Below, piece after piece: positions 1,985 to 20,228 of a stretch of DNA of 64,000 nt. A program made the position numbers and the translations under genes. Source of the DNA: Pseudoalteromonas sp. R3 (GTDB lineage Bacteria > Pseudomonadota > Gammaproteobacteria > Enterobacterales > Alteromonadaceae); the NCBI RefSeq assembly GCF_004014715.1, contig NZ_CP034835.1:2046001-2110000 (forward strand), in the 5' to 3' direction. The notes under the pieces are model-generated. The model made no database searches, was not told where the DNA came from, and worked only from the letters and a program-made list of their open reading frames with translations. Position 1 is the first letter of the stretch, and each line of letters begins with the position of its first letter.

Positions 1985-3121
1985 TTGACTAAATCCGCTC
2001 TCTTAGTCCTTGAAGACGGCACTGTGTTTCGCGGTACTGCCATCGGCGCTGACGGCCTGTCCGTTGGTGAGGTAGTATTCAATACGTCTATGACGGGATA
2101 TCAAGAAATTTTGACGGATCCTTCTTATGCAGAACAGATTGTGACGCTGACTTATCCGCACATCGGGAATACCGGTACTAATAGTGAGGATGAAGAAGCC
2201 GATAAAATCTGGGCTAAGGGTCTGGTAATTCGGGATTTGCCATTGCTTGCAAGTAATTTCCGTAACGAGCAATCGTTAAGTGACTACTTAAAAGCACGCA
2301 ATATCCTTGGGATTGCCGATATAGATACGCGTAAGCTGACGCGTATCCTGCGTGATAAGGGCGCTCAAAATGGCTGCATCATCGCGGGCGATGAAATTGA
2401 TGAGCAGCAGGCACTGGAAGCGGCAAAAGCGTTCCCAGGCCTTAAAGGGATGGATTTAGCGAAAGTCGTAACAACAGAACAGACTTACGAGTGGCGTGAA
2501 GGGAGCTGGACTTTAGGTCAGGGCTTCCAGACTCTGAGTTCTGAGGAAGAAAAATTTCATGTTGTTGCGTATGATTTTGGTGTGAAAAAGAACATTCTTC
2601 GCATGTTAGTAGACCGTGGCTGTAAACTAACTGTAGTACCAGCAGAAACCTCCGCTGCAGAAGTACTGGCGATGAATCCAGACGGTATCTTCCTGTCTAA
2701 TGGCCCTGGCGACCCAGCGCCTTGTACTTATGCAATCGATGCGATTAAAGCCTTCTTAGAAACTGATACGCCTATCTTTGGCATTTGTTTGGGCCATCAG
2801 TTACTGGCGCTGGCATCCGGTGCACAAACGGTGAAGATGAAATTCGGTCACCACGGTGGTAACCACCCGGTGAAAGACCTGGACCGTGACGTGGTAATGA
2901 TCACTGCACAGAACCATGGTTTCGCAGCGGACGAGGCTACTTTGCCAGATAACCTGCGTGCAACGCATAAGTCGTTGTTCGACGGAACCCTGCAGGGCAT
3001 TCATCGTACCGACAAGCCGGCCTTTAGCTTCCAGGGTCACCCAGAAGCGAGCCCGGGTCCGCACGATGCAGCACCGCTGTTCGACCACTTCATTGAATTA
3101 ATGCAAGCACGTAAAGCCTAA
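1985..3121 (+). CDS. carA: Carbamoyl-phosphate synthase small (glutaminase) subunit
   Basis: CarA hydrolyses glutamine and passes ammonia to CarB for carbamoyl phosphate, the shared precursor of arginine and pyrimidines. The 378-residue protein has the CPSase small-chain domain at residues 1-150 and a class I glutamine amidotransferase domain after it. The nucleophile lies in GICLGHQ, and the His-Glu pair is in the GHPEASPGP segment. The start is TTG at 1985, chosen because GGAGGT lies 4 bases upstream and the protein begins [12 protein letters not shown], as in relatives. It forms an operon with carB, 17 bp downstream, probably under the leader attenuator. Confidence 0.97.
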
Positions 3122-7659: not shown

Positions 7660-7830
7660 GTGTGTGTTGAAGGCCAAAGTTATGCTGTTTTTATACAAAG
7701 AGCCTGATTTCGTCCTGTAACATTATTACTCGCCGGTTTGGGGTAAGGTGACAAAGTGGTATTTAACACTGTAATATCTTTCTGTTTACATTGGCGGTTA
7801 TTAGTGGAATTATGAAGGTATGTAATATGA

Positions 7831-7884
7831 GCCGCTTTGGTGTGTTTTGAACTACCAAAGTGGCGCAGAATAAGTTGTTATGTG
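7831..7884 (-). other. Possible degenerate attC site at the left edge of the cassette region
   Basis: GCCGCTTTGGT (7831-7841) and ACCAAAGTGGC (7854-7864) form an imperfect hairpin followed by GTTGTTATGTG, resembling the CATAACAAC box of an attC read on the minus strand. The expected GCGTTA box on the other side is not recognisable, so the site is degenerate or the resemblance is accidental. 7660-7830 holds nothing I recognise. Confidence 0.3.
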
Positions 7885-7900
7885 AACAACGAGGTTAACA

Positions 7901-8009
7901 ATGGAATCGAACCCTCATTGGAAATATTTTCTAGCTCTCGATGAAGATTTTTCTCAATTGTCGAGGTTTGTTGAACCTTGCGAAGAGAATTTATGGCAGG
8001 TTCAACTTG
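7901..8009 (+). pseudogene. 5' fragment of a gene cut by the IS30-family element
   Basis: An ATG at 7901, preceded by ACGAGG, opens a frame of about 36 native residues, MESNPHWKYFLALDEDF and onward, that runs straight into the inverted repeat of the IS30-family element and stops inside it at 8035. The acidic-aromatic beginning looks like the start of a real cytoplasmic protein. No continuation is recognisable beyond the right end of the element at 9031, so the rest is lost. I do not recognise the family. Confidence 0.45.
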
Positions 8010-8985
8010 GAAGTGCACCAACTTTTTCATTATAGATTTCAAATGGAGTTTTGTAATCAAGGCACCTCCTGGGCCTTGAGTTTAAATTATGCTCTATTTC
8101 TTGAATCTGTTTGTTGGTTACAGTTGAGAAATCAGTACCTTTTGGCAGATACCTTCGAATTAGGCTATTTATCTGCTCAACAGCTCCTTTTTCCCAACTA
8201 TGGTAGGGCTGGCAAAAGTAAGAATCACACTGCAATGTCCCGTTTACCTTTATGTGCTGAGCATTTTCAGACCCATTATCATAAGTAATCGATTGAACAA
8301 ATCCTGCGGGGTGTGAACTTAGGCGTTTTATTATTGCATTGCTTGTTACTAATGCACTCTTGGAGCTTAGCTTGGTTATATGCACTAGCCGTGTTGCTCT
8401 TTCTATGATGACATTCAGTGCCGATTTCTTGTGCTTAGATACTACGGAATCGCTCTCCCAGTGGCCTAATTGGGAGCGCTCATTTATAAATGTGGGCCGT
8501 TCCAGGATGCTTGTTTTCATTGAGCATTTTTTGTTATATCGACGTGATGGATACTTTTTTCTGCGCTTTTTGTGTTTTCTAGCCAAGCACGCTATGAGTT
8601 CAGGAGGCGAACTGTAAACGAACTGATAGATTGATTTATGGCACACATAGGGAGCTTCATTAGTAAGCTTGAGACGTCCTGATATAATCTGAGGGGACCA
8701 GCCTTTCCTGAGCTTATCTAACACATACAGCCGTGTCTCAGAAGTCTTCAGCTTTTCACGTTGAGCACGCTTACTCATCCTGGCCTTGTACATATCATGA
8801 GCTGGATTTGGATAGTATGTTGGCACGTAATAGTCATAGATATTCCTTTTGAGCTCTCTACTAATAGTGGAATGAGAGCGATTTAGTAAACGTGCAATTT
8901 CACGTATCGTTTTATCCTGATAGTGAGACCAATTAAAAATAAGCTTCCGCTCTTGATGACTCAAATGACAGTATTTTTGACCCAT
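8002..8985 (-). CDS. IS30-family transposase
   Basis: The 327-residue DDE transposase starts MGQKYCHLSHQERKLI with an N-terminal helix-turn-helix (IREIARLLNRSHSTISREL). The catalytic core shows GHWESD, with the first Asp, then TYDNGSEN, with the second Asp, and a final Glu in the segment WEKGAVEQINSLIRRYLPKG. The end NSRPRRCLDYKTPFEIY is typical of IS30. The reading frame crosses the terminal inverted repeat, so the last few residues and stop are encoded at or beyond the element boundary. The gene looks intact and possibly active. Confidence 0.92.
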   Translation of the reverse strand: MGQKYCHLSHQERKLIFNWSHYQDKTIREIARLLNRSHSTISRELKRNIYDYYVPTYYPNPAHDMYKARMSKRAQREKLKTSETRLYVLDKLRKGWSPQIISGRLKLTNEAPYVCHKSIYQFVYSSPPELIACLARKHKKRRKKYPSRRYNKKCSMKTSILERPTFINERSQLGHWESDSVVSKHKKSALNVIIERATRLVHITKLSSKSALVTSNAIIKRLSSHPAGFVQSITYDNGSENAQHIKVNGTLQCDSYFCQPYHSWEKGAVEQINSLIRRYLPKGTDFSTVTNKQIQEIEHNLNSRPRRCLDYKTPFEIYNEKVGALPS

Positions 8986-9030
8986 TTTGCACCTCCAAAA
9001 TAGCTAACTTGAACTATAGTGGTGCACTTC
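8010..9030 (-). mobile_element. IS30-family insertion sequence
   Basis: About 1.02 kb bounded by GAAGTGCACCA (8010-8020) and its exact complement TGGTGCACTTC (9020-9030), enclosing one IS30-type transposase read leftward. The outer bases and any target duplication could not be fixed: the bases beyond the repeats differ, so flanking DNA may have rearranged after insertion. It truncates the gene to its left and lies 13 bp from a RAYT-type end on its right. Confidence 0.8.
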
Positions 9031-9043
9031 AATTTAGAACATA

Positions 9044-9090
9044 GCCCACATTGAACTGTGAATGTATTGGTGGGTGTCACTCAAAAAATT
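9044..9090 (+). repeat. Solo RAYT-type element end
   Basis: A stretch starting GCCCACA and ending TGGGTGTCACTCAAAAAATT closely matches the sequence at 14955-15002, which lies downstream of the RAYT transposase gene. CCCAC and GTGGG within it can form a hairpin, as at ends of IS200-like and REP-type elements. No transposase accompanies this copy, so it looks like a remnant. Confidence 0.5.
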
Positions 9091-9289
9091 AGTGTCGAAA
9101 TCACAACACCTTGCCAAATAGGAAAAAAGTAGGTCTAATAATACGCATAAATAACGTTGTTCAGGCAGGGAATGAGTCACGTTGTAACGGTTTAAGTCAC
9201 AAACGGTTCAGAACAGAAGTTACTCATCAAAAGCAAATCCCCATAGCATAGACCACACCAGCCGGATACGGCGTGCAGGTAGCGGCCCA

Positions 9290-9342
9290 GTTCAACAAAC
9301 GATTATGCGTACTGCGTACGCATGAATACTAAAGCGTTATAT
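9290..9342 (+). other. Putative short attC recombination site (forward)
   Basis: The left box GTTCAACAAACG and the right box AAAGCGTTATAT flank a hairpin of ATGCGTAC (9305-9312) and GTACGCAT (9316-9323). This is the TAACAA-to-GCGTTA polarity of an attC read on the plus strand, at about 53 bp. It precedes the large NTPase gene, so a cassette could run from 9336 to 13443. The bases between 9091 and 9289 show no recognisable gene. Confidence 0.5.
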
Positions 9343-9451
9343 GCCTTTAGCACCATGGATATCAACGGTGGCAGCCAAGTATGTGTGCTGGAAAACGAAG
9401 AGCGATATTGTTTTATCGTTTCCTAAGAGTTCACTAGATTAGAGTTTAAAA

Positions 9452-12400
9452 ATGGGAAAAAAAATAATACTCGTCCACGGGCTGGGCGGTTCCGCCGACG
9501 GAACATGGGGAAGATTTCCAGAGTTCCTTGAGCAGGATGCAGACCTTGATTACAGCATTGTTTCATATGGCTATCAGTCGCCCCATATAATTAAACAATT
9601 TTATCAGCGTGCCCCCAGTATTCTGAATATAGCAAATGGCCTACTCACCGATATAAAAGCTCGGTGCGACTTGGATAACGATGAAATTATTCTTGCTGGC
9701 CATAGTTTGGGTGGCTTAGTGGTTAAAAAACTTCTCCTTCGCATGAAGGATAAAAAAATTAACCATAAAATCAGAAAAGTATGCTTTTTTGACGTTCCAC
9801 ATGATGGGTCAGGGTTCGCAAATGTTGGCAAGTATATTTCATTTAGAAATCGGCATCTTAAAAGTCTGTGTCGTGATTCCAGCGAACTCGATGATTTAAA
9901 TGATCAGTGGGTAGATAGCGAGCTGGACAATGCTCTGGAGATTATGAGCATTGTCGCTGCAAATGACGACATTGTATCTTCTTCTAGTTCCAAGAGTATC
10001 TTCAGGCATCATCAGGTTGAAACAATTAACGATGTTGATCACGGCTCAATTGTCAAACCGAAAAGTATGGAATCATCTTCATATATTGTTTTTAAAAAAT
10101 TTATTTTGGAAGAACATACTGTAAATAGGTATAAAAATACTGCCTCACGAGACCTTGAAGACTGGAAAAATGTAGAAAGAAATCATAGTTACCATTATGC
10201 GACTGATGAAAATCGAACAAAAGATTTTGAGTCGTTTGTTGCTGCTATGAATTTAGAACGAGCTGTGATTAGGCTAACAGGAGCATCTGGGTTAGGTAAG
10301 ACACGCTTATTATTAGAAGCTATTGATGCATCTACTTCTATTGATGATTCCTGTGTTCTTATTTTTAATGCACCTGGTTACGACACCATCATTAAAGAAA
10401 GTATTCGAGCAATGGTTGAAGATCGTGTTCATGGCCTGGTAGTAATTGAAAATTGTAATATTGATTTGCACAACCATTTGGCCAAGGAGGTCAATAAAAC
10501 AGATTGCTTGCTAAAACTTGTTACAGTTGGCTATTCAGATGAACAAGTTGATGAATCTATTCATATTCAACTTTCCCCATTGTCAGATGAGGCCATAAAG
10601 CAGGTCCTGTCCCCAATATTAGTTGGGATGGATTCGAGTGACGTTGATCGTGTAGCTCGGTTTGCTCAGGGTTATCCTCTTATGGCTACTCTAATCGCAG
10701 GGCAGTATCAGAAAGAGGGTCGATTGCTTGGTTCGATAGAAAGTAGCTCTGTCGTAAGAAAATTAATCGATGGTGACGGCGGTATAACAGATGTTGAGAA
10801 GGGAATGTTATCTGCTTGTTCCTTATTCGATGTCTTTGGTACTGCCGAAGGGACAGCCGGCGAAGAGGCCAAATATATTGCGGAAGATGTTGCAGGGTCT
10901 GACCTAAAAACATTTGACAGAGTATTAAAAATATTTACCAGTCGGCAAATCATAAATCGCGCGGGGCGGTATGCAAGACTGGTGCCTAAGCCGCTGGCAC
11001 TGACACTGGCGTCAGAATGGTGGGAGGAGACGTCATATGATCGTCAAAAGCAGCTAATTGATACTCTCCCCGATTCCTTAATGCAGAGTTTTTGTACTCA
11101 GGCTTCATATCTTGATGACCAGCCGAGTGTTCAAAGATTTTCAGATCGACTATTTGGGGGGCAAAGCCCTTTTGTCCAAGCGGAGGAGCTGCTTACAGAA
11201 AGGGGTTCGAAACTCTTCCGCGCATTTGTTGAGGTGAACCCGAGTCAACGAGCGATGCTTTATACAGAGTTTTGTCTGAGTACAGTCATGAACAACTTCA
11301 GGCTATAGATGGTGATACGCGAAGAAACCTAGTATGGGCATTGGAAAAGCTATGTTTTCATGCGGATGTATTTGAAAAATCAGCATGGTGTATGTTGTTG
11401 CTGGCATCAGCTGAAAATGAAAGTTGGAGCAACAATGCAACGGGTATGTTTTCTCAGTTGTTTCGAGTGCATCTATCTGGAACGCAAGCGAAGCCTAATA
11501 TTCGCTTTGATATTTTAAAGCGGGCTATTGCAGTTAATCAGACCGATGTAGATATTGTGGTTCTTGAGGCTTTAGGTCAAGCAATCAGTACTTATGGAGG
11601 CACACGAACTGTTGGGGCCGAGTATCAGGGAACTAAAGCACCGCTTGAAGAGTGGCGGCCAGAGCTATGGCAAGATATTTTTGATTTCTGGCAACAAGCT
11701 TTTGATTTAATGCTGGTTCTTTTTGAACGGGGTGATGCACAAAAAGAAAAAGTCCTGTCAGATATAGGTCATTCAATTCGGGGCTTTGTTGCTCGTGGCC
11801 GTATTGAAATGTTGGATTCGGCGATTAGGAAGGTTGTTAGTATCAATGGCTGCTATTGGCCAGAAGCTCTAGACAGTATCAAAAACACTTTTGAGTATGA
11901 TTCAGAAGATATCAAGCAAGAAGCGACTGATGCGCTGAATAACTGGTTAGAGCTGCTAAGCCCCGATGAAGCAGAACTGCCCGAGAAGTTAAAGATTTTG
12001 GTAACCAATCCTCCCTGGGAGCATCATAAAGGTGAGGATGGTCACTACGTTGATGTGGCAGCAGAGAATGCGAAAGTACTTGCGACAGAACTCTCAAATA
12101 ATATTGAAGAATTACTCCCTCACCTCGGCTTATTGTTACAGGGGGAGCAAAAGCAGTCCTATGCTTTTGGCCACCAACTGGCTCATGACTTAACTGATGT
12201 TGTATCGATACTTGATTTGGCCCTAGAGTGCTTAGCAGCCATTGAAAAGCCTAACTCTCGGTTAGTTTTAGGTTTATATCGAGGTTTGTTTGAGCAGTCG
12301 CAAGAGCTTTGGCAAGAGAATATCGATCGGCTAGTTGCGGATGAGAAATTGGTTCATCTTTATCCAGATTTTATACGGACGGGTGATATTAAAAAGGCAC

Positions 12401-13350
12401 ATTTAGATAATCTGCTGGAGCTCATTCAGCGAGGTGTGTTATCGCCAAATAGTGCGAACGTATTGAGTTATGGCAGTGTGACTGACAGCATTGAACCGGA
12501 TGTGATGGCCAGTTTTTGCTTACAGTTAGCTGAGCTGGGCGAACAGGCAAGCTGGTCTGCGCTCAATGTGATTTATATGTATTGTTTTAGCAATAATGAC
12601 AGCATCAATGAGCTAAGAGATCAGCTTAAGTATTTAGTCACAGCCGTACCTTTACATAAAGGGCAAGAGAACACCGCAACAGATACACACCATTGGCATG
12701 ACATGGCTGAAAAGCTATTAAAAGAGCGAGATGAAGAGTTTGCAGTTGCGCTAACTAATCAGTTAATTGCGGCGAGTAAATTTGGCTTAAATCATGGTGA
12801 TATCTGGTCTTATACCAAACCTTTAATGTTAAGCCTAATGAGCGACTATGGTGACGTAATCTGGCCGATATTTGGTGAGGCTATCGTTCGAGCTGAAGGG
12901 ATGGATAAGTATTGGTTACAGCAGCTCTTAGATAGGGAAACAAGTTTGGTAGGAAATGTGCCAAGTGTACTTTCTGTTATTCCAGTTGAAAGCGTTATGG
13001 AATGGTGCTTAAAGCAACCAGATATTGGCCCAGTTTTTGTTGCCCGTTGTTTAAATGTCATCGAAACAGTTGATGAGATGCAACAGCCTTCGGCTTTGTT
13101 TATCGCCTTGCTTGAGAACTTTGGAAATGACCAACGGGTAGCGAGTGAACTGAGCGCTAATATGGGAACCCGTGGTTGGTCAGGGTCTCTAGTACCCTAC
13201 CTAGAATCAGATAAAGCAGCACTAAGCCCCTTGATTGAACATGAAAATTCTAATGTAAGGCACTGGGTTAAAGATCATATTGCATATATAAACCGGCAAA
13301 TAATTGAAGAGTCGAAGCGAGATGAAGAGCATGGATTTGGGCTTTATTAG
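9452..13350 (+). pseudogene. Alpha/beta-hydrolase plus STAND-type NTPase with helical C-terminus (one frameshift)
   Basis: Two overlapping frames, 9452-11308 and 11272-13350, read as one protein of about 1,299 residues if one C is added to the CCC run at 11239-11241; the join then reads VEVNPESTSDALYRVLSEYSH. Residues 1-210 form a lipase-like alpha/beta-hydrolase: AGHSLGGL with nucleophile Ser85, then an Asp in ANDDIV and a His in VDHGSI. A P-loop GASGLGKT lies at residues 277-284, with a Walker-B-like GLVVIEN and a GxP motif in FAQGYPLMA, marks of STAND NTPases. The remainder is helical, repeat-like sequence suited to sensing. The layout of effector, STAND module and sensor matches Avs-like anti-phage proteins, but this role is inference. 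It is AT-richer than the core and bracketed by attC-like sites. Confidence 0.7.
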
Positions 13351-13377
13351 TATGAGGGGAAACATTTTAAAGGCGTC

Positions 13378-13449
13378 ATATAACAAGTTGCTGCACGCGG
13401 AAAAATTACTCGCTGCGCTCCCAATTTTCCGGTGAGCAAAGCGTTATGC
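13378..13449 (+). other. attC recombination site (forward)
   Basis: TATAACAAGTTGCT at the left and GAGCAAAGCGTTATGC at the right, with inner arms GCGGAAAAATT and AATTTTCCGG, form the imperfect palindrome of an integron attC of about 72 bp in plus orientation. It separates the NTPase gene from the lipoprotein gene. Confidence 0.7.
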
Positions 13450-13464
13450 ACCTATTGAGGTTTA

Positions 13465-13869
13465 ATGTTGAAATTTCACATTTCATTTTTAGTTTTGATA
13501 ATTTCAGGTTGCACAATTACAACAACTGAAAAGGCAAAAGATTACCATGTTGGTATGTGGGATCTAGTTGCTGATTATTGTGACGAGACATACGAGTTAA
13601 GAGCTGATGGTACCCAAACTGTAATTAGCTACCCTGAAATAAGCACTGATACTTATACATTTAAAAGGTTTGGTGATACTGAGTTTTATGCTTGGGAATA
13701 CACGGTAATCGAATATAACAATAAACCAAGCTGCAATGGTACTTTCGATACTCATTTGGGTGAACAAACGTTGGCTTTTGTAAAGTTTAAAAACAATTTT
13801 ACAGAAATGCACATATATTCTTGGCCCAATGAAACTTCATACATTGGTGGTTACTTAAAAAAGCGGTAG
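13465..13869 (+). CDS. Small lipoprotein of unknown function (integron cassette gene)
   Basis: The 134-residue protein has a signal peptide ending in the lipobox IISGC, so it is predicted to be lipidated at Cys16 and membrane-anchored. The mature part is beta-rich, with many Tyr and Thr (YELRADGT, YTFKRFGDTEFYAWEY), suggesting a small lipocalin-like or Lipocalin_5-type domain, but I recognise no family. The start at 13465 is 16 bp after an attC, the usual spacing for a cassette gene. Its own downstream attC is missing, probably lost where the RAYT fragment joins. Confidence 0.65.
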   Translation: MLKFHISFLVLIISGCTITTTEKAKDYHVGMWDLVADYCDETYELRADGTQTVISYPEISTDTYTFKRFGDTEFYAWEYTVIEYNNKPSCNGTFDTHLGEQTLAFVKFKNNFTEMHIYSWPNETSYIGGYLKKR

Positions 13870-13907
13870 TTTGGCCAGACAAACCGAGACATCCACTCGA
13901 AACTGGC

Positions 13908-14783
13908 GTGCGGAATGTACGTCGTCTACCTTTAGGTAGTGCTCAATGGATTGAGGAAAAATTGCTGACCCTTGCCAAGGTGTTTTGCATTGATGTTTGT
14001 GGCTATGCTGTTATGAGCAATCATACGCATATTGTGTTGTATGTGGATGATAAGAAAGCACAAAGGTTATCAGATAAAGCAATCGTTCTTCGCTGGCATA
14101 AGCTGTTTAAGGGCAACTGGCTGACGCACAAGTTAATTGGTGGTGATGAGCTGAGCGCATCCGAGCATAGTATGCTGGCAGCGGATATTGCTGAATTCAG
14201 ATCCCGTCTTGCGAGCATCAGCTGGTTTATGCGGGTGCTCAATGAAGACATTGCCCGCAGAGCCAATAAAGAAGATGGTTGCACAGGCCGGTTTTGGGAA
14301 GGGCGATTTAAGTCACAAGCCTTGCTGGATGAAGCGGCACTGGCAGCATGCCTGGCTTATGTTGACCTGAACCCAGTCAGAGCCAAAATGGCAGAGACAC
14401 CGGAAACGTCAGACTACACCAGCATTAAAAAGCGGATTGAGCATGCACAGCAAGGTAAGCAACCCAAAAGCTTACTGCGTTTTGCGGGTAACCCAAGAAA
14501 GCACATGCCCAAAGGACTGCCGTTTGAGCTGACTTATTATATCCAACTGGTGGAGTTAACAGGCCGATGCATGCGCGCAGATAAGCGGGGCTATATCAGC
14601 GATAGTCAGCCACTGCTGACACGATTGCAAATAGAGCCAGACAACTGGCTCAAACTGACTACGCAGTTTACAAAGGTCTTTCATGGTGCAGTGGGGCGAA
14701 AGCAAGCGATGACAGATTACTGTGAACATCTTCATAAAAGGCGACGAGCCAACTTGACTCAGTGCGAGCGATTACTGGGTTAA
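13908..14783 (+). pseudogene. REP-type (RAYT/Y1) transposase, N-terminus missing
   Basis: The frame encodes the HUH-type single-strand transposase domain: YAVMSNHTHIVLYVD contains the HxH motif, and LAYVDLNPVRAKM carries the conserved region with the catalytic Tyr. The sequence ends with the long C-terminal extension of Alteromonadales RAYT proteins. Relatives start with a TPYYHCVSRCVRRAFLCG-like segment; here only VRNVRRLPLG remains and the following loop is shortened. The 5' part is therefore deleted, and the GTG at 13908 is only the first available start. It is probably inactive. Confidence 0.75.
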
Positions 14784-14954
14784 CACTTTTCCTTAACTAC
14801 CATCTCGATTTATCCAAGCTCAGGTTTGGGTACGTTCTCGTATTGTCAGAATCTGATTATTCTTCAGGTTTTCATGCTTAAACTTATGACTTTCACTGCT
14901 CAGAGCTTATACGGAATGCAGTATCTGGTAGTCTTGCATTTCTTTATTGATCCT

Positions 14955-15002
14955 GCCCACAATTGGTCTGCGAATTTACCAGTGGGTGTCACTTAAAAAA
15001 TT
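14955..15002 (+). repeat. RAYT-associated terminal repeat
   Basis: This copy starts GCCCACA and ends TGGGTGTCACTTAAAAAATT. It lies about 170 bp after the RAYT gene and is near-identical over most of its length to 9044-9090. CCCAC and GTGGG can pair. It is taken as the 3' end of the RAYT element. 14784-14954 and 15003-15239 hold no recognisable gene. Confidence 0.5.
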
Positions 15003-15239
15003 CTTGCTACGCAGCGAGAGATGCAATGGTAGTATTTTGTGTCAACTAAGCTGATCTGGCTTTTCCGTGCCATTGGCATTGGGTTCGTCCTTATCCTTGG
15101 AGCAGATGAAAAGCATAGGCTAGGGTTGTATGACAGACAAGTTTTGGAATGTACGTCTATCAGCTCTATTTTTGTTACTTGTTTTTTTTTTCAAGTTGAG
15201 TTAGGTTGGGATTGAGAATTAACTCACAAGGATAGAAAC

Positions 15240-15415
15240 ATGAAATTAAAGCTAAAAAAGAACAAAATTAAACAGTTATGCCATGATCATGCAGTGCTTA
15301 ATGGTAAGGCAACAAAAGAAGTGAATGGTGGATGGGACAATTGGGGGGCACAGGGCGTTGTCCTGTAACACATCGTGATTTTTGTGGCACAAATTGGGCT
15401 CAGTGTGCGCCATAA
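15240..15415 (+). pseudogene. RiPP-like precursor peptide gene (one-base frameshift)
   Basis: An ATG with AAGGAT upstream starts MKLKLKKNKIKQL, a basic helical leader, followed by KEVNGG, which resembles the double-Gly end of leader peptides. The frame stops at 15366-15368, but adding one G to the run of six at 15343-15348 restores a 58-residue product. Its core would read GGTGRCPVTHRDFCGTN with WAQCAP after it: three Cys, several Thr. Such KLNLKKK-type leaders followed by Cys-rich cores occur in putative natural-product precursors of this group. No modification enzyme or transporter lies nearby, so function is open. Confidence 0.5.
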
Positions 15416-15736
15416 ATATTGATGCATAAATAAGGGGCTATCCGCCCTTGGTTATGGCTATTTAAATGATTGTAACCCTCCCTATTACTATCTAGTAAAT
15501 CCTCCTGAAAAACACAGACAAAAATAAAAAACAAATACACCCAGTCTTACCTGTTACTTTTACAGGTCCATATACAATTAATACAAGTGCTTCAGCAAGT
15601 AGAAAAGCGGAAAGATTCAGAAGTCAGGCTTTGCGGGTGAACAATTTAAGCTGAAATAGTCGTTATTTGATATTTTGGACACGTTTAAGCACTGCCTAAG
15701 TGCGACAGTCATCACTCGAAGTTAAGATAATGACAA
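15416..15736. other. Gene-free stretch between peptide gene and cassette array
   Basis: No convincing coding frame. A small hairpin, ACCTGT with ACAGGT (15548-15569), and a GC stem without a T run near 15431-15449 are the only structures seen. Confidence 0.3.
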
Positions 15737-15874
15737 TTCTAACCCAGAAAGCGCTCACAATTAGCCAGATTAGAGCGTCGCTTTTTTGCAAAAGCGGACA
15801 AACAGAGACATCGCTGGAGCGTCCATATATGTCACTTAAAAAATTATTTGTCCGCGTTTACGACCTTGTTAATT
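15737..15874 (-). other. attC-like site (reverse)
   Basis: Read on the minus strand it begins AATTAACAAGG, shows perfect arms GCGGACAAA and TTTGTCCGC (15847-15855 with 15794-15802) and ends near GGGTTAGAAT. The stop codon of the neighbouring gene lies inside the first box, as is common for cassettes. The last box is atypical. Confidence 0.5.
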
Positions 15875-16201
15875 GCCACTATCCGATGAATCGTCGTTAC
15901 TGTAATCACTTAATTCACTAAATGCTGAAGAGTGATTAAATGTTCCTGAAGAGACTCGGCGAGGAGGTCTATTTTTTCTGTTTAAATATTCTGTTTTTCC
16001 ATAGTCTCTGTATTGAGACAGAGTTCCATTGAAAATTTGTTTCGCAAAATCTAAATTTTTATCAGATATTTTTGCTCGGGACAAAGCGTACAATATTTCT
16101 TCATCCGAATACGACTCTTTATCACCATAAGTGCTCAACCAAGGAGTTAGCTTATTCGCAATCCTTTTTAACTTCCAATTTCGTAAAGCTTTCAGAAGCA
16201 T
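15869..16201 (-). CDS. DUF6559-like small protein (integron cassette gene)
   Basis: The 110-residue protein starts MLLKALRNWKLKRIANKL, a basic helical beginning, followed by PWLSTYGDKESYSDEEI and a FAKQIFNG segment. This resembles DUF6559 proteins, small cytoplasmic proteins of unknown role often found in gamma-proteobacterial integrons. The C-terminus is low-complexity Ser/Asp-rich. A GGGAG ribosome binding site lies before the start. It lies between two reverse attC sites and its stop overlaps one of them. Confidence 0.6.
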   Translation of the reverse strand: MLLKALRNWKLKRIANKLTPWLSTYGDKESYSDEEILYALSRAKISDKNLDFAKQIFNGTLSQYRDYGKTEYLNRKNRPPRRVSSGTFNHSSAFSELSDYSNDDSSDSGN

Positions 16202-16246
16202 AATCTGTTCTCCCTTAGCTGAAGTTTTCGCGCATGTTACCGTGGC

Positions 16247-16351
16247 AATTAACGCCGCAAATAAACGGCAAAAATTAGTTGGCTAAAATTTGTGAGGTAC
16301 GAACAAAGCCAACTGATTTTTGTCCGCCCTTTTTAATTTGCTTTGTTATAA
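16247..16351 (-). other. attC recombination site (reverse)
   Basis: On the minus strand it begins TTATAACAAAGC and ends GCGGCGTTAATT, with long arms around AGTTGGCT and AGCCAACT, about 105 bp. It is nearly identical (about 4 differences in 97 bp) to the next attC, interrupted by the IS10-like element, so the two cassettes share a site type, as in chromosomal arrays. Confidence 0.85.
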
Positions 16352-16354
16352 GCC

Positions 16355-16636
16355 CTATGAACGAAGGCCATTTTGGTAATGATAATGCTCTTGGCTAGCT
16401 GTGGTAAACCCAGCAATAAAATTGGGCTGTTTACTTTTTTCAGCTAATTTTTCGGGCTTAATATTATGCATGTCATTTTCTACAGCCCAGTCAAATACAC
16501 CTTGATCAAGCGGGTATTTAGTTAGTATCCCAGTTAGTGAGTTTTCTTTTATCCAACTTTCAGCTAATTCGAGTTCACTGAAAACACCGCCAGAAAAGTC
16601 TGCATTGCTTTTATTGAATATCCATACTGACTTCAT
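16355..16636 (-). CDS. DUF7710-family protein (integron cassette gene)
   Basis: The 93-residue protein reads MKSVWIFNKSNADFSGGVF, then a long helix ELELAESWIKENSLTG, then LTKYPLDQGVFDWAVEN, and ends with ASQEHYHYQNG. This pattern matches small DUF7710 proteins, which are frequent cargo of integrons and whose function is unknown. TTTGGAG precedes the ATG. The gene starts about 20 bp after one attC and its stop abuts the next, the normal packing of a cassette. Confidence 0.7.
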   Translation of the reverse strand: MKSVWIFNKSNADFSGGVFSELELAESWIKENSLTGILTKYPLDQGVFDWAVENDMHNIKPEKLAEKSKQPNFIAGFTTASQEHYHYQNGLRS

Positions 16637-16671
16637 TCACTAAAACTCCAAAGGGCTTATAACGCCGCAAA

Positions 16672-17969
16672 CTGAGGAATCCCCAGATAATCATATTTAA
16701 AATCAATGTGATGGACACGCACGGCATTGTTTGATCTAATTTATTTCGCCAAAAACTAACCAGATAACAACACCATGCTTGATACCACCATCCTACACGA
16801 TATGCTCAGAAAAAACTGCCCCCAAATTCACGCTCGGCGCCTTGATTCATTAATGCTGGCAACTGAGACTTTGCTCGATTGCAACCAACTATCTCTTACA
16901 GAGCTGGGTCGGAATATGAAGGGCCCTGTCGCTGCAAAACACAACATTAAACGTATGGACCGACTGCTTGGCAACACTGCCATGCATAACGACCGACTTG
17001 CTATTTACCGCTTTCATGCTCGCCTGACGTGTGGCGCTAATCCTATGCCTATCTTGCCGGTCGACTGGGCCGATGTGCGCGAGCAACTGCGGTTGATGAC
17101 TTCGCGTGCTTCCGTCAGCATTCAGGGACGCTCAATGATAGTGTATGAGTGCACCTTCACGTTTGCTCAATACAACTCACCCAAGTCCCATCAGCTGTTC
17201 CTGGATGAACTTGCCAGCATCCTGCCTGATAAATGTATTCCACTCATCGTGACAGATGCTGGCTATCGAAATGCCTGGTTTCGACAGGTTGATAAAAAAG
17301 GCTGGTTCTGGCTCGGGCGGGTGCGTGGTAAAGTCACTTATCAGCATAAGAACAGCGAAGATTGGCCTGTAAATCAGGCTCTTTACCCATCAGCAACTCC
17401 TCGTGGACGTTATATTGGAGAAGTAAAACTTGGCCGAAAAAGCCCTATCAACTGCCACCTTCATTTATATAAAGCCAAACAAAAAGGCCGTACTGACAGG
17501 CGCTCTTCAAAAGCTGGCAGGCATCATACCGCACAAAAAAGTTATCGAACTGGCAGTAAAGAGCCCTGGCTATTAGCCACTAACCTGCCCGCAGAATTGT
17601 TCAAACCCAGACGTGTAGTATCACTTTACGCCAAACGTATGCAAATCGAAGAGAGCTTTCGAGACCTGAAAAGCCCCCAATACGGGATGGGTCTGCGGAA
17701 CCGGCTCGATATTCTGCTATTACTCGCTTTGCTGGCGACCATTATTCTCTGGTGGATCGGCCTGTATGCCCAACACTCAAACTGGCAACGAAAGTTCCAG
17801 GCAAATACAATAAAAGACCGTGCTGTTCTGTCGACTGTCAGACTTGGCAAAGAGGTTAGGCGACGAAGCGATTATGTTATGACAGGAAAGCAACTGCGCT
17901 GGGCTATACGCGAATATGTGCGCTTGATACATCTGCTCGGGAGGCCTCAATTATGAGGGGATCCTCCAG
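16672..17969 (+). mobile_element. IS10-like (IS4-family) insertion sequence, complete
   Basis: The element is 1,298 bp. Its left end CTGAGGAATCCCCAGATAAT and right end (complement CTGGAGGATCCCCTCATAAT) are imperfect inverted repeats resembling IS10 ends. A perfect 9-bp direct duplication, CGCCGCAAA, flanks it at 16663-16671 and 17970-17978. It carries one intact transposase gene, and the clean duplication suggests recent insertion. Confidence 0.93.
16775..17956 (+). CDS. IS4-family transposase (IS10 group)
   Basis: This 393-residue DDE transposase begins MLDTTILHDMLRKNCPQ and shows the IS4 core: LPVDWADV with the first Asp, VTDAGYRNAWF with the second, and the Y-R-E-K signature in YAKRMQIEESFRDLKSPQYG with the catalytic Glu. 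The length agrees with IS10-type enzymes of about 400 residues. The gene fills the element and ends 13 bp from its right end. Nothing suggests inactivation. Confidence 0.93.
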   Translation: MLDTTILHDMLRKNCPQIHARRLDSLMLATETLLDCNQLSLTELGRNMKGPVAAKHNIKRMDRLLGNTAMHNDRLAIYRFHARLTCGANPMPILPVDWADVREQLRLMTSRASVSIQGRSMIVYECTFTFAQYNSPKSHQLFLDELASILPDKCIPLIVTDAGYRNAWFRQVDKKGWFWLGRVRGKVTYQHKNSEDWPVNQALYPSATPRGRYIGEVKLGRKSPINCHLHLYKAKQKGRTDRRSSKAGRHHTAQKSYRTGSKEPWLLATNLPAELFKPRRVVSLYAKRMQIEESFRDLKSPQYGMGLRNRLDILLLLALLATIILWWIGLYAQHSNWQRKFQANTIKDRAVLSTVRLGKEVRRRSDYVMTGKQLRWAIREYVRLIHLLGRPQL

Positions 17970-18062
17970 CGCCGCAAATAAACGGCTAAAAATAGTTGGC
18001 TAAAATTTGTGAGGTACGAACAAAGCCAACTGTTTTTTGTCCGCACTTTTTAATTTGCTTTG

Positions 18063-18299
18063 TTAGTGTTCGTTTTTTGACTTTATTAAGAATTTTAATG
18101 CGCCATACTTAACAAATGGCGACATGACATAAGCAAGCAATACAGAATCAGCAACTAAAATCCATGTGAGAACAACCGACTTATCTTCAGAGTTACATAA
18201 CTCTCTAAAGAGTATTTCAAAGCAAACCCCATCCGGTGATGACAAAATATACATTGCCACGCCGAACAAAGTTAATGCGATGAGCACTCTTTTGAACAT
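18063..18299 (-). CDS. Small two-helix membrane protein (integron cassette gene)
   Basis: The ATG at 18299 is chosen because AGAGAGGA lies just upstream; a longer frame from a TTG at 18335 is possible but has a weak site. The 78-residue product has two hydrophobic segments (VLIALTLFGVAMYIL and WILVADSVLLAYVM) and a basic C-terminus, so it is an inner-membrane protein of unknown function. Its TAA lies inside the R'' box of the IS-split attC. Confidence 0.55.
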   Translation of the reverse strand: MFKRVLIALTLFGVAMYILSSPDGVCFEILFRELCNSEDKSVVLTWILVADSVLLAYVMSPFVKYGALKFLIKSKNEH

Positions 18300-18350
18300 T
18301 TCCTCTCTGAGTTGTCGGCTAGCTCTAATTCTCAACTAAAACTCCAAGAA

Positions 18351-18398
18351 CACTAACGCCGCGTTCACCGGCTTGTCCGGTGCAACGCTTTGTTATAT
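18351..18398 (-). other. Short attC recombination site (reverse)
   Basis: Read on the minus strand it begins ATATAACAAAGCG, contains CACCGG/CCGGTG arms around a tiny loop, and ends GCGGCGTTAGTG. At about 48 bp it is near the lower limit for attC sites. Confidence 0.75.
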
Positions 18399-18399
18399 T

Positions 18400-18999
18400 T
18401 CATGCTTGCGGACCAGATAGAATCACTAGTGATTTACCGGCTGACCATTGATTCGGGCTAGCTCCAGAATTCCATCGGCCATGCCCGTCACCTATTGAAC
18501 CTCCATTTTTACTTCGCCAAAGTATGGCCCTATCTAATTTCTGGGTGTTAGTGTCCAGTATAAGAAAAACTTTATCGTGCCAATTTGGGTGACCTAAAGC
18601 ATCGTCGATAACATGTACGTCAAAATTAAAGTATTGGCCTTTGGTCCCTGAACTATGATCGACACTAAGAATCTCGACAACGCTCCATGGTGATTCTTGT
18701 TTAATACTCTTTATTTCATTGATCAGACTTTGCGCTTTATTTTTTGATGATTGATGAAGCTGTTCTATATCAGATAGATGCTGCTCGGCAGACAACTTTG
18801 ACTGTTCAATATCTTGTAGAGCTTGAGATACTGCATGTTCATTCAAGGCTTCGCTAACTCTCTCTCCGATATTGTTTCGTTCAACGCCCCAAAATATAAG
18901 CAATAGCAAAGCTACAAAACCACATGCTGAAGGGATAATGATTTTAAGATATTTAACCTCTGTTCTGAGAGAAGAAACTTCCGCTTTTAAATCTTCCAT
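18400..18999 (-). CDS. Single-pass membrane coiled-coil protein (integron cassette gene)
   Basis: The 199-residue protein has a short Glu-rich helix (MEDLKAEVSSLRTEV), one transmembrane segment (IIPSACGFVALLLLIFWGV), a coiled-coil stalk of about 60 residues (ALQDIEQSKLSAEQHLSDIEQL) and a beta-rich C-terminal domain from about residue 100, with DHSSGTKGQYFNFDVHV and LDTNTQKLDRAILWRSKNGG. It is probably anchored with the C-terminal domain outside the cytoplasm. GGGAGA precedes the ATG. I recognise no family. It lies between two attC sites. Confidence 0.6.
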   Translation of the reverse strand: MEDLKAEVSSLRTEVKYLKIIIPSACGFVALLLLIFWGVERNNIGERVSEALNEHAVSQALQDIEQSKLSAEQHLSDIEQLHQSSKNKAQSLINEIKSIKQESPWSVVEILSVDHSSGTKGQYFNFDVHVIDDALGHPNWHDKVFLILDTNTQKLDRAILWRSKNGGSIGDGHGRWNSGASPNQWSAGKSLVILSGPQA

Positions 19000-19014
19000 G
19001 TGATCTCCCTTGAA

Positions 19015-19116
19015 ATATAACGCCTCAGTTAAAAGGCAAAATTTGGTTGGCTATAATGTGAAGCGGAGCGAAACCAGCCAACTGAATTTTGTCCGCTTTT
19101 AAACTGTTTGTTATAC
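19015..19116 (-). other. attC recombination site (reverse)
   Basis: On the minus strand it begins GTATAACAAACAG and ends GAGGCGTTATAT, with inner arms CAGTTGGCTGG and TTGGTTGGCT-like sequence, about 100 bp. It ends the first cassette of the array as counted from the integrase relic. Confidence 0.8.
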
Positions 19117-19605
19117 ATCGACAACTTCACAATCCCAGTTTTCTATACTTGATTTGAGCTCTGAAATGAAAATTAAAACAAAAGCCAATACGCCAAATGC
19201 AATACATAGCCAAATAGGAAACACTCTTTGAGCAATCCCAACTCCTGCTAAAGCGCCCAGAATTATAGGGGGTATCCAGTGATAGAGTGGCTTTTTGGGT
19301 GGTTTTATATATTTAAGTTTATAAAGTTTTACCATCACGCCTTCTTTGTTCAAAGAGCACTCATTTCGACCCTTAATTAAATCTTTACTCTCGAAGGCAA
19401 TTTCATATTCAACACCGTCTACCATGAATTTATGATTAGATTTCAATTTGTAATTCTGGCTTTCAGAAACTAGTTTTCCATTAACAGAGACAAATTCTTT
19501 ACCAGAGAAAGGACTACACTGATAAACGATTTCATTCGAGTCAACTTGAAAAATGAAAGTAGCCCCTTCTTTAAATGAAACTTCCACAAATTCATTAATT
19601 TTCAT
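19111..19605 (-). CDS. Membrane protein with an N-terminal beta domain (first cassette gene)
   Basis: The ATG at 19605 is chosen because AAAGGAG lies 7 bases upstream; the frame is open to 19668 but that part belongs to the attachment-site region. The 164-residue product starts MKINEFVEVSFKEGATFIF. Its beta-rich N-terminal domain of about 105 residues contains VSVNGKLVSESQNYKL and EYEIAFESKD, loosely like FHA or Ig folds. Two adjacent membrane helices follow (WIPPIILGALAGVG and LCIAFGVLAFVLIFI). Function unknown. It sits next to the proposed attI, where expression from an integron promoter would be strongest. Confidence 0.6.
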   Translation of the reverse strand: MKINEFVEVSFKEGATFIFQVDSNEIVYQCSPFSGKEFVSVNGKLVSESQNYKLKSNHKFMVDGVEYEIAFESKDLIKGRNECSLNKEGVMVKLYKLKYIKPPKKPLYHWIPPIILGALAGVGIAQRVFPIWLCIAFGVLAFVLIFISELKSSIENWDCEVVDV

Positions 19606-19621
19606 CCAGACTCCTTTAGAT

Positions 19622-19824
19622 GTATAACAATTTATTCTACCCCAAAATGTCGGAACATAAACCGACAAAACGGGCTGTATTACATACCCTCATAGTCCCA
19701 CGGGAAAAACTCAAAGTAAACAATCGGTTGCAACCTGCAAAAACACACGTGTGTGAAAATTGGACAAAACGGCACGTAATAATGTTATTGGACAATAGTC
19801 AAAATACTGTCTATACATCCAGTG
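19622..19824 (-). promoter_or_regulatory. Proposed integron attI region and LexA-type SOS box
   Basis: GTTATAC (minus strand, 19622-19628) is the junction at which the first cassette would be joined; no second attC half lies beyond it, as expected for attI. TACTGTCTATACATCCAGTG at 19805-19824 fits the LexA pattern CTG-N10-CAG and stands 24 bp before the integrase relic, where SOS control of integron integrases is known in Vibrio and mobile integrons. A cassette promoter could not be pinned down. Confidence 0.45.
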
Positions 19825-19847
19825 TCACCTTACCAAATGGAACGTTC

Positions 19848-20228
19848 ATGAAATCACCTTTTCTGCTCATGCTTGCCAAATGCGCCCTCGAGGCCCAGTA
19901 GACTATTCGAGTGTGGTGCTTGGAGTCTTTTACATCCTTCATTCTTGTTAACGGTCTCCCAATAGAGAAACCGACATTCAATCGAACTACTGTAAATGAA
20001 GGCTTTAATTGCAGCTACAGCCTGGTTCTCACTTTACCCCAAATCGGTAAAATACATGGATTTGATGGCTCTATTATCCATACAAGTGACTCAAAAGGAT
20101 GCACTCGTCCGAGAATTAAATCGAACGTTCGCCCACCCAGGCGCACATCTACATACTTTGAAACGATTTGTCATACTCCTCTGGACCCAGCTTTGCTACA
20201 CTTCCTGCATCATAGTTATCGCATATAG
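19848..20228 (+). pseudogene. Degenerate integron integrase (intI-like)
   Basis: The ATG at 19848 opens MKSPFLLMLAKC, like the start of many integron integrases, then meets a stop. Beyond it, fragments in different frames look like eroded integrase parts: TIRVWCLESFTSFIL for the N-terminal SAM-like domain, AATAWFSLYPKSV for the ALNALVFLY region, VTQKDALVREL for the LTxxEVxxLL stretch, and CHTPLDPALLHFLHHSY for the CHTLRHSFATHLL box. The middle, including the catalytic part, is deleted. It points away from the cassettes and follows an SOS box, the expected position of intI. The call rests on motif resemblance by eye. Confidence 0.45.

Follow-up and report, generated by a model that had tools for sequence, protein, structure and literature searches.

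Clusters of attC sites lacking an integrase (CALINs) are widely pictured as arrays without an attI of their own, although this is not in the formal definition, and their origin is debated, with lost integrases, chance secondary sites and rearrangement as the explanations on offer. Here, we present an analysis of a cassette island in the genome of Pseudoalteromonas sp. R3 (two contigs, 5.8 Mb), located within a window of 64,000 nucleotides on the second contig (C2, positions 2046001-2110000), to which all unprefixed coordinates below refer. With a probability of roughly 0.8, the island is a head-to-head pair of integron platforms without an integrase gene (intI) of their own, which was filled by an integrase of the family linked to these attI sites.

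The closest described systems each share part of this arrangement. As in a sedentary chromosomal integron, the family has attI and intI in divergent arrangement, cassettes whose attC all point the same way and an SOS-like box ahead of intI, and in Pseudoalteromonas sp. OOF1S-7 the intI frame is unbroken; the window locus differs in that it lacks intI, has two facing attI and lies in a genome with six attI matches, not one. Like a CALIN, the island holds at least two attC sites without intI nearby, but attI is present at both of its ends and each of its clusters is headed by one. In Xanthomonas, CALINs occur at conserved loci and are described without attI in the accessible part of the report (PMC12444791). 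Further, attI sequence that is able to recombine occurs within arrays as deltaattI-type cassettes of class 1 and 2 integrons, which in the portion of the source at hand are mostly 14-18 nt of attI1 ending resistance cassettes, with one complete 65-bp site (PMC12901181); the copies studied here differ in carrying about 170-250 bp, including the promoter region and a hairpin, and in heading arrays. The nearest precedent that we found, going by a partial view of its source, is a prophage with two attI, where one heads an intI-less array beside a complete integron; here, there are up to 11 attI per genome across the genus, and also facing pairs. The literature searched (mostly abstracts, with most subscription papers outside the search) contained no report of multicopy chromosomal attI.

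Two attI sites and two opposed attC arrays

No Rfam family matched the window at the gathering threshold, and we therefore built a covariance model for attC (R1) from 22 sites, of which 12 came from OOF1S-7, nine from P. rubra S2599 and one from another locus of the window genome. No window site was used for training, yet one training site (L055:815-913, in OOF1S-7) is 93% identical to window positions 16250-16349. For attI, a sequence model (R2) was built from 22 copies including both window sites, whose R2 scores are thus those of training members. The sites and the intI remnant are as follows:

7712-7881, plus strand: attI of type B, facing right (R2 89.8 bits at 7771-7880)
13381-13446, plus strand: attC (R1 41.3 bits, E 5.3e-8)
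15847-15871, minus strand: 5' half of an attC, running into sequence like repetitive extragenic palindromes (REP); all 25 nt recur unchanged within an attC of S2599 (L157)
16250-16348, minus strand: attC (R1 79.9 bits, E 1.7e-18)
17967-18065, minus strand: attC, split by an insertion element (R1 65.5 bits, E 1.4e-14)
18354-18395, minus strand: short attC (R1 38.7 bits, E 2.7e-7)
19018-19113, minus strand: attC (R1 83.2 bits, E 2.3e-19)
19624-19734, minus strand: attI of type A, facing left (R2 100.2 bits)
19807-19822, no strand: sequence resembling an SOS (LexA) box within the promoter region of intI, at the same position in intact platforms
19848-19873, plus strand: opening codons of an otherwise deleted intI (MKSPFLLML...); DNA identity stops at 19873

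A preliminary description, made from the window's letters alone, had seen a decayed chromosomal integron with a single array of six to eight attC sites. The decayed integron is supported by strong R1 matches and by a genome in which intI matches are all broken and none exceeds the family cut-off, but the single array gives way to two of opposite orientation, one with four minus-strand attC and the other with a single plus-strand attC, and a separate attI heads each of them. The attC covariance search that the description had named as its check, in which a lack of matches would have counted against it, returned five sites (E 2.3e-19 to 2.7e-7). A sixth is just the 25-nt half at 15847-15871, which scores 8.4 bits in R1 with filters off, and the count may have included the two attI (7868, 19626) and a palindrome at 9294-9339. 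We rejected that palindrome as a short attC because R1, also with its filters disabled, is silent there up to E 10. The description's near-identical sites, at 16247 and the one split by the insertion element, do agree at 96% across 96 nt, and three genes (ends 19111, 18063 and 15869) indeed have their stop codon within the first attC box. No attC was found between the left attI and the 3.9-kb defence-like gene behind it.

The outer limit of the left attI at 7712 was set from an inverted repeat (I1) and from the alignment of copies; this type B site has 70% identity with type A across 102 bp, and no intI was found adjoining it. At the right end, positions 19624-19873 share 94% DNA identity with the intact attI-intI platform of OOF1S-7 across attI, promoter region and about ten intI codons. 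The start of intI is matched by tblastn at E about 1e-7, in part from residues preceding the ATG. In place of an adjacent intact integrase, the right end thus keeps only the first codons. The box at 19807-19822 is SOS-like by what we take to be the LexA consensus. The relic integrase with an SOS box that had been proposed here is accordingly present as the box and these codons, and the longer relic reading frame, to 20228, was rejected: matches end at 19873-19880, and neither blastn nor tblastn found intI in the remainder.

By eye, 23 aligned attI copies have a common sequence up to the GTTA core and diverge from there on, which is the border expected where cassettes insert. A second set comprises 41 attI, and for the 39 of them with an exact GTTA the mean pairwise identity is 0.72 before the core and 0.315 after it; among the 39, three are identical downstream. 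An open reading frame (ORF) of at least 60 amino acids starts within 250 nt downstream of 37 of the 41 attI; in the mirror direction, 12 of the 41 have one. Additionally, copies of four window cassettes, with a DNA identity of 95.5-99.8%, occur in other genomes, where two of the four stand first behind related attI, and across relatives the content varies and cassettes are shared as units.

The attI family across Pseudoalteromonas

In a genome-wide R2 search with filters that lose weak matches, attI was found in 68 of 108 Pseudoalteromonas genomes, with up to 11 per genome, and in 83 of the 108 intI was matched above the family cut-off. Copy numbers can be lopsided: G021 has 11 attI matches and one intI match, and G022 has seven and one. 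Among the matches listed are those of 19 genomes in which attI and a divergent intI, or a fragment of one, are 127-160 bp apart. Around a first set of 19 loci, 17 of 18 attC lie downstream of attI with matching orientation, and the other one is on the same strand but upstream, in a tandem array. The set of 41 attI covers 40 stretches from 13 nearly closed genomes, chosen among the matches listed and not all that those genomes hold (L242 was chosen knowing of an attC match there); all 47 attC around them are downstream and in matching orientation, with the two attC of L223 assigned to its two facing attI, and 29 of the 41 attI have at least one attC. Beside these 41, tblastn found a full intI twice, a partial or relic intI six times (L223-L226 included) and none in 33 cases. 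Outside the genus, R2 matches occurred in five of 197 genomes sampled across the order, namely the window genome, three genomes of one other family with 2-8 copies apiece and a fifth genome in which the only match is weak. In the three (G035, G152 and G172, of genus g12 in family f12), all 14 attC around 16 attI are downstream and matching, 8 of the 16 having one, and one attI adjoins a nearly full-length intI match.

The orphan attI are of several kinds. Some retain an SOS-like box or an intI start, and three of the 33 without intI keep start-codon stumps by eye (L233, L236, L241). Neither feature is present in type B or in a second group of 11 copies (group 2: L204, L205, L209, L210, L216, L229, L231, L232, L235, L237, L238), and tblastn found no intI beside either kind in the stretches examined. 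Relatives of type B occur in six of 14 genomes searched, the window genome counted. The group 2 copies share a common sharp left end by eye. At this border lies a sequence like GAGCGATAACCGGACACTG, and L246 has a similar one without attI. The sequence may belong to an intergenic repeat and take part in the spread of attI. In an empty-site comparison at L229 (two genomes with attI, three without), homology breaks off at a roughly constant position beside GGTTATG, which is suggestive of a shared insertion hotspot. Two attI of G021 (L204, L205) lie inside an identical repeat of 1599 bp, and one of G126 (L237) inside a repeat of 1269 bp at 99.8% identity. Transposase- or resolvase-like ORFs are close to these attI.

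Copies of attI carry about 170-250 bp, promoter region included, with an 11-bp hairpin just before the core. Over 45 distinct rows, with relatedness uncontrolled, its covariation score is 0.284; shuffles give 0.128 +/- 0.012, and slid controls do not exceed 0.084. Two of five measures were not above shuffles: the four pairs changed on both sides were reached by 212 of 500 shuffles, and the 15 further pair types by 295 of 500.

Two of the six attI matches in the window genome belong to the island. A second facing pair consists of a type A attI at 1151 kb, which adjoins a broken intI, and an opposing attI at 1167 kb, and the outer flank of the latter is kept in P. rubra S2676, S2599 and Pseudoalteromonas sp. 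XMcav2-N (L187, L194, L199), where attC follow. The attI at 1003 kb of the first contig (C1) retains the first intI codons and an SOS-like box. Over the whole genome, R1 gives 28 matches up to E 1 in several clusters. Further attC clusters were seen at 2484-2557, 2698-2700 and 3023-3025 kb of C2 and at 1003-1006 kb of C1, one of them near a second broken intI (2549730-2550471).

Cassettes, mobile elements and the locus in relatives

The genes and mobile elements between the two attI are as follows:

7901-8001, plus strand: start of the first cassette gene, cut by an insertion element (read from the sequence; extent approximate)
8002-8985, minus strand: transposase, IS30-like (Pfam HTH_38 and rve over cut-off)
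9452-13350, plus strand: defence-like gene in two overlapping frames (9452-11308, 11272-13350), resembling PD-Lambda-4_A
13465-13869, plus strand: lipoprotein-like cassette gene; 424 bp at 98.8% DNA identity to S2599 (L157 10682-11105)
13908-14783, plus strand: REP-associated tyrosine transposase-like gene between REP-like repeats (D2, D7)
15869-16201, minus strand: cassette gene c15869; 398 bp at 95.5% DNA identity to G080 (L240 4418-4815)
16355-16636, minus strand: DUF7710 cassette gene (Pfam PF24819, E 1.4e-33)
16663-17978, no strand: insertion element inside an attC, IS4-like (transposase 16775-17956, plus strand, Pfam DDE_Tnp_1)
18063-18335, minus strand: small cassette gene c18063, membrane-like by eye; 384 bp at 97.4% DNA identity to G080 (L239 3110-3493)
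18400-18999, minus strand: cassette gene c18400 (ORF)
19111-19608, minus strand: c19111, first cassette gene behind the right attI (ORF; stop codon within attC)

The DUF7710 cassette is 99.8% identical over 411 bp to S2599 (L156 3092-3502), where it is the first cassette directly behind the attI (2983-3092) of an intI-linked platform, and c18063 is first behind an orphan attI (3001-3109) in G080. The copy of c15869 in G080 belongs to a second array, two attC along from the attI that heads it; that of the lipoprotein-like cassette lies at the intI end of an S2599 array whose platform has no R2-type attI. For the defence-like gene, the two pieces searched separately match PADLOC PD-Lambda-4_A at E 1.5e-19 and 1.8e-24; the gene is apparently frameshifted, and against the fetched loci its cassette gave a 66-bp match. 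The cassettes c18400 and c19111 gave no Pfam family over cut-off and, against the same loci, attC-sized matches or none. The insertion element at 16663-17978 ends in a 9-nt direct repeat, CGCCGCAAA; the family names IS30 and IS4 are our presumption. So is the name of the tyrosine transposase-like gene, which has no Pfam match up to E 0.1 and a copy in OOF1S-7 (L055) at 97% amino acid identity. REP-like repeats abut attC fragments or cassette ends in the window (15847-15871, 13870-13880) and in L055 (2300-3000, 3640-3860), as if the repeats of this gene preferred integron sites as targets.

The island is flanked on the left by carB, greA, a dksA-like gene (these three by reading) and a DUF465 gene, and on the right by a gene of 98 amino acids and an M9 collagenase gene. 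Judged by this collagenase, the closest named relatives are XMcav2-N (98% identity), S2599 and S2676 (97%) and OOF1S-7 (85%). Comparison of the locus among relatives, also called for in the preliminary description, showed differing content between DUF465 and the collagenase and not the conserved gene set that would have spoken against an integron. G053 (L223) has the same facing pair, type B beside DUF465 and type A beside the 98-amino-acid gene, with different cassettes between, and its type A site adjoins an intI relic of 79 aligned residues, about 57 of them past the start codon. OOF1S-7 has three right-facing type B attI in tandem in one array; S2599 has one right-facing type B attI on each of two contigs, with the middle unassembled. 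Type B adjoins DUF465 in both strains. In XMcav2-N (L161) and S2676 (L162), neither attC nor attI was matched by R1 or R2, with R1 giving nothing up to E 10, and the island ORFs look, by reading and without a family search, like helicase genes and a type I restriction-modification system (the ORF list is that of L161, with which L162 aligns along most of its length). The interval from DUF465 to the 98-amino-acid gene was thus seen with cassettes in some strains and a restriction-modification-like island in these two, and appears to be a hotspot that receives more than one kind of defence island. In the distant G014, greA is about 0.9 kb from the 98-amino-acid gene, without a dksA, DUF465 or R2 attI match (R1 was not run there). 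Ten of 11 other fetched collagenase neighbourhoods (L039-L049) have no greA, dksA or DUF465 match in the stretch, and because these left-flank genes are missing from it, the locus is not comparable in those ten.

Explanations weighed and significance

On the reading that we prefer, the left attI would have taken up right-facing cassettes and the right attI left-facing ones, with the arrays meeting in a middle rich in REP-like sequence and transposase genes. The recombination of cassette attC into both attI would be the work of the integrase family that has an intact copy beside such attI in relatives. The right platform would formerly have had its own intI, deleted after about ten codons, and the left one, without a trace of intI, was probably served in trans. 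Two insertion elements, the REP transposase and the frameshift would reflect later erosion, and little cassette movement would now be expected in this strain, because no intact intI was found. On sequence grounds, we favour an integrase encoded elsewhere as having filled at least the left platform; the right is explained equally well by loss of intI in place. For the genus, the balance tips slightly towards a distributed integron, in which one integrase would serve many orphan attI over both chromosomes. The attI would be a specialised, hairpin-bearing family that multiplies itself, in part without a trace of intI or of an SOS box, and facing pairs would be two-ended islands that take up cassettes at either end.

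Several observations weigh against these readings. The left array is weak, with a single full attC, and in the second facing pair of the window genome there is also a single attC, behind the forward attI. No attC lies in the fetched stretch for 12 of the 41 genus attI and 8 of the 16 from the other family. Some attI have spread with larger DNA, because two G021 copies lie in an identical 1.6-kb repeat. Six genomes (G001, G050, G068, G069, G094 and G126) have attI matches and no intI match at E 1e-25, and the lone intI match of G080 lies some 127 kb away from the nearer attI match, so that the cassettes there may predate the loss of a cognate integrase. Finally, relics of intI starts at several orphan attI point to loss in place and not to trans service there.

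This last observation leads to the strongest competitor, in which all orphan attI are remnants of complete integrons that gained their cassettes in cis and then lost intI in place, without any trans action. It shares the two-platform reading and differs on trans action alone, so that its odds overlap with those of the preferred reading; we regard it as possible and still rather unlikely. Its best support is the first intI codons and SOS-like box at the right attI and at 1003 kb of C1, the longer relics at L223, L224, L225 and L226, and the start-codon stumps seen by eye at L233, L236 and L241. It fits less well with type B and group 2 attI, beside which tblastn found no intI in the stretches examined, with the one sharp left end that group 2 copies share by eye, with the 11 attI and one intI match of G021, and with the 97.4% identical cassette that stands first behind an orphan attI in G080. 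An improbable alternative would have the extra attI arrive as deltaattI-type cassettes, circles with attI instead of attC inserted by the integrase. Such cassettes are on record in class 1 and 2 integrons, as far as the source could be consulted (PMC12901181), and three type B copies do stand in tandem in one OOF1S-7 array, but the copies here comprise about 170-250 bp of the attI region and are not mostly short pieces, nor did a GTT core show up as their common left border, save for GGTTATG at one locus.

The remaining two explanations dispense with one or both attI and are less probable still. The opposed attC orientations, with repeats and a transposase where the arrays meet, could reflect one ordinary array with a single real attI and an inverted left half, turned round, for instance, through recombination between REP or insertion element copies. 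Such an inversion is very hard to reconcile with a left attI of a different type (70% identity over 102 bp), with type B already standing beside DUF465 in S2599 and OOF1S-7, where all R2 matches face right, and with the same facing pair in G053. Marginally less credible even than this is a genus-specific promoter or hairpin repeat that only resembles attI, with cassettes entering through secondary (attG) sites: the repeat is multicopy, its hairpin has some covariation and some copies lie inside larger repeats, but in 19 genomes, among the matches listed, it stands divergent from intI at 127-160 bp, and it ends at the cassette border in the GTTA core and heads arrays.

The origin of integrase-less cassette clusters becomes a testable question in Pseudoalteromonas, because many of the clusters here are headed by a recognisable attI. 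If one integrase uses all of these sites, cassette traffic, defence genes included, would be spread over many loci and both chromosomes. Surveys that seek only intI plus attC would then overlook docking sites, and many clusters annotated as CALINs would be live or recently live landing sites.

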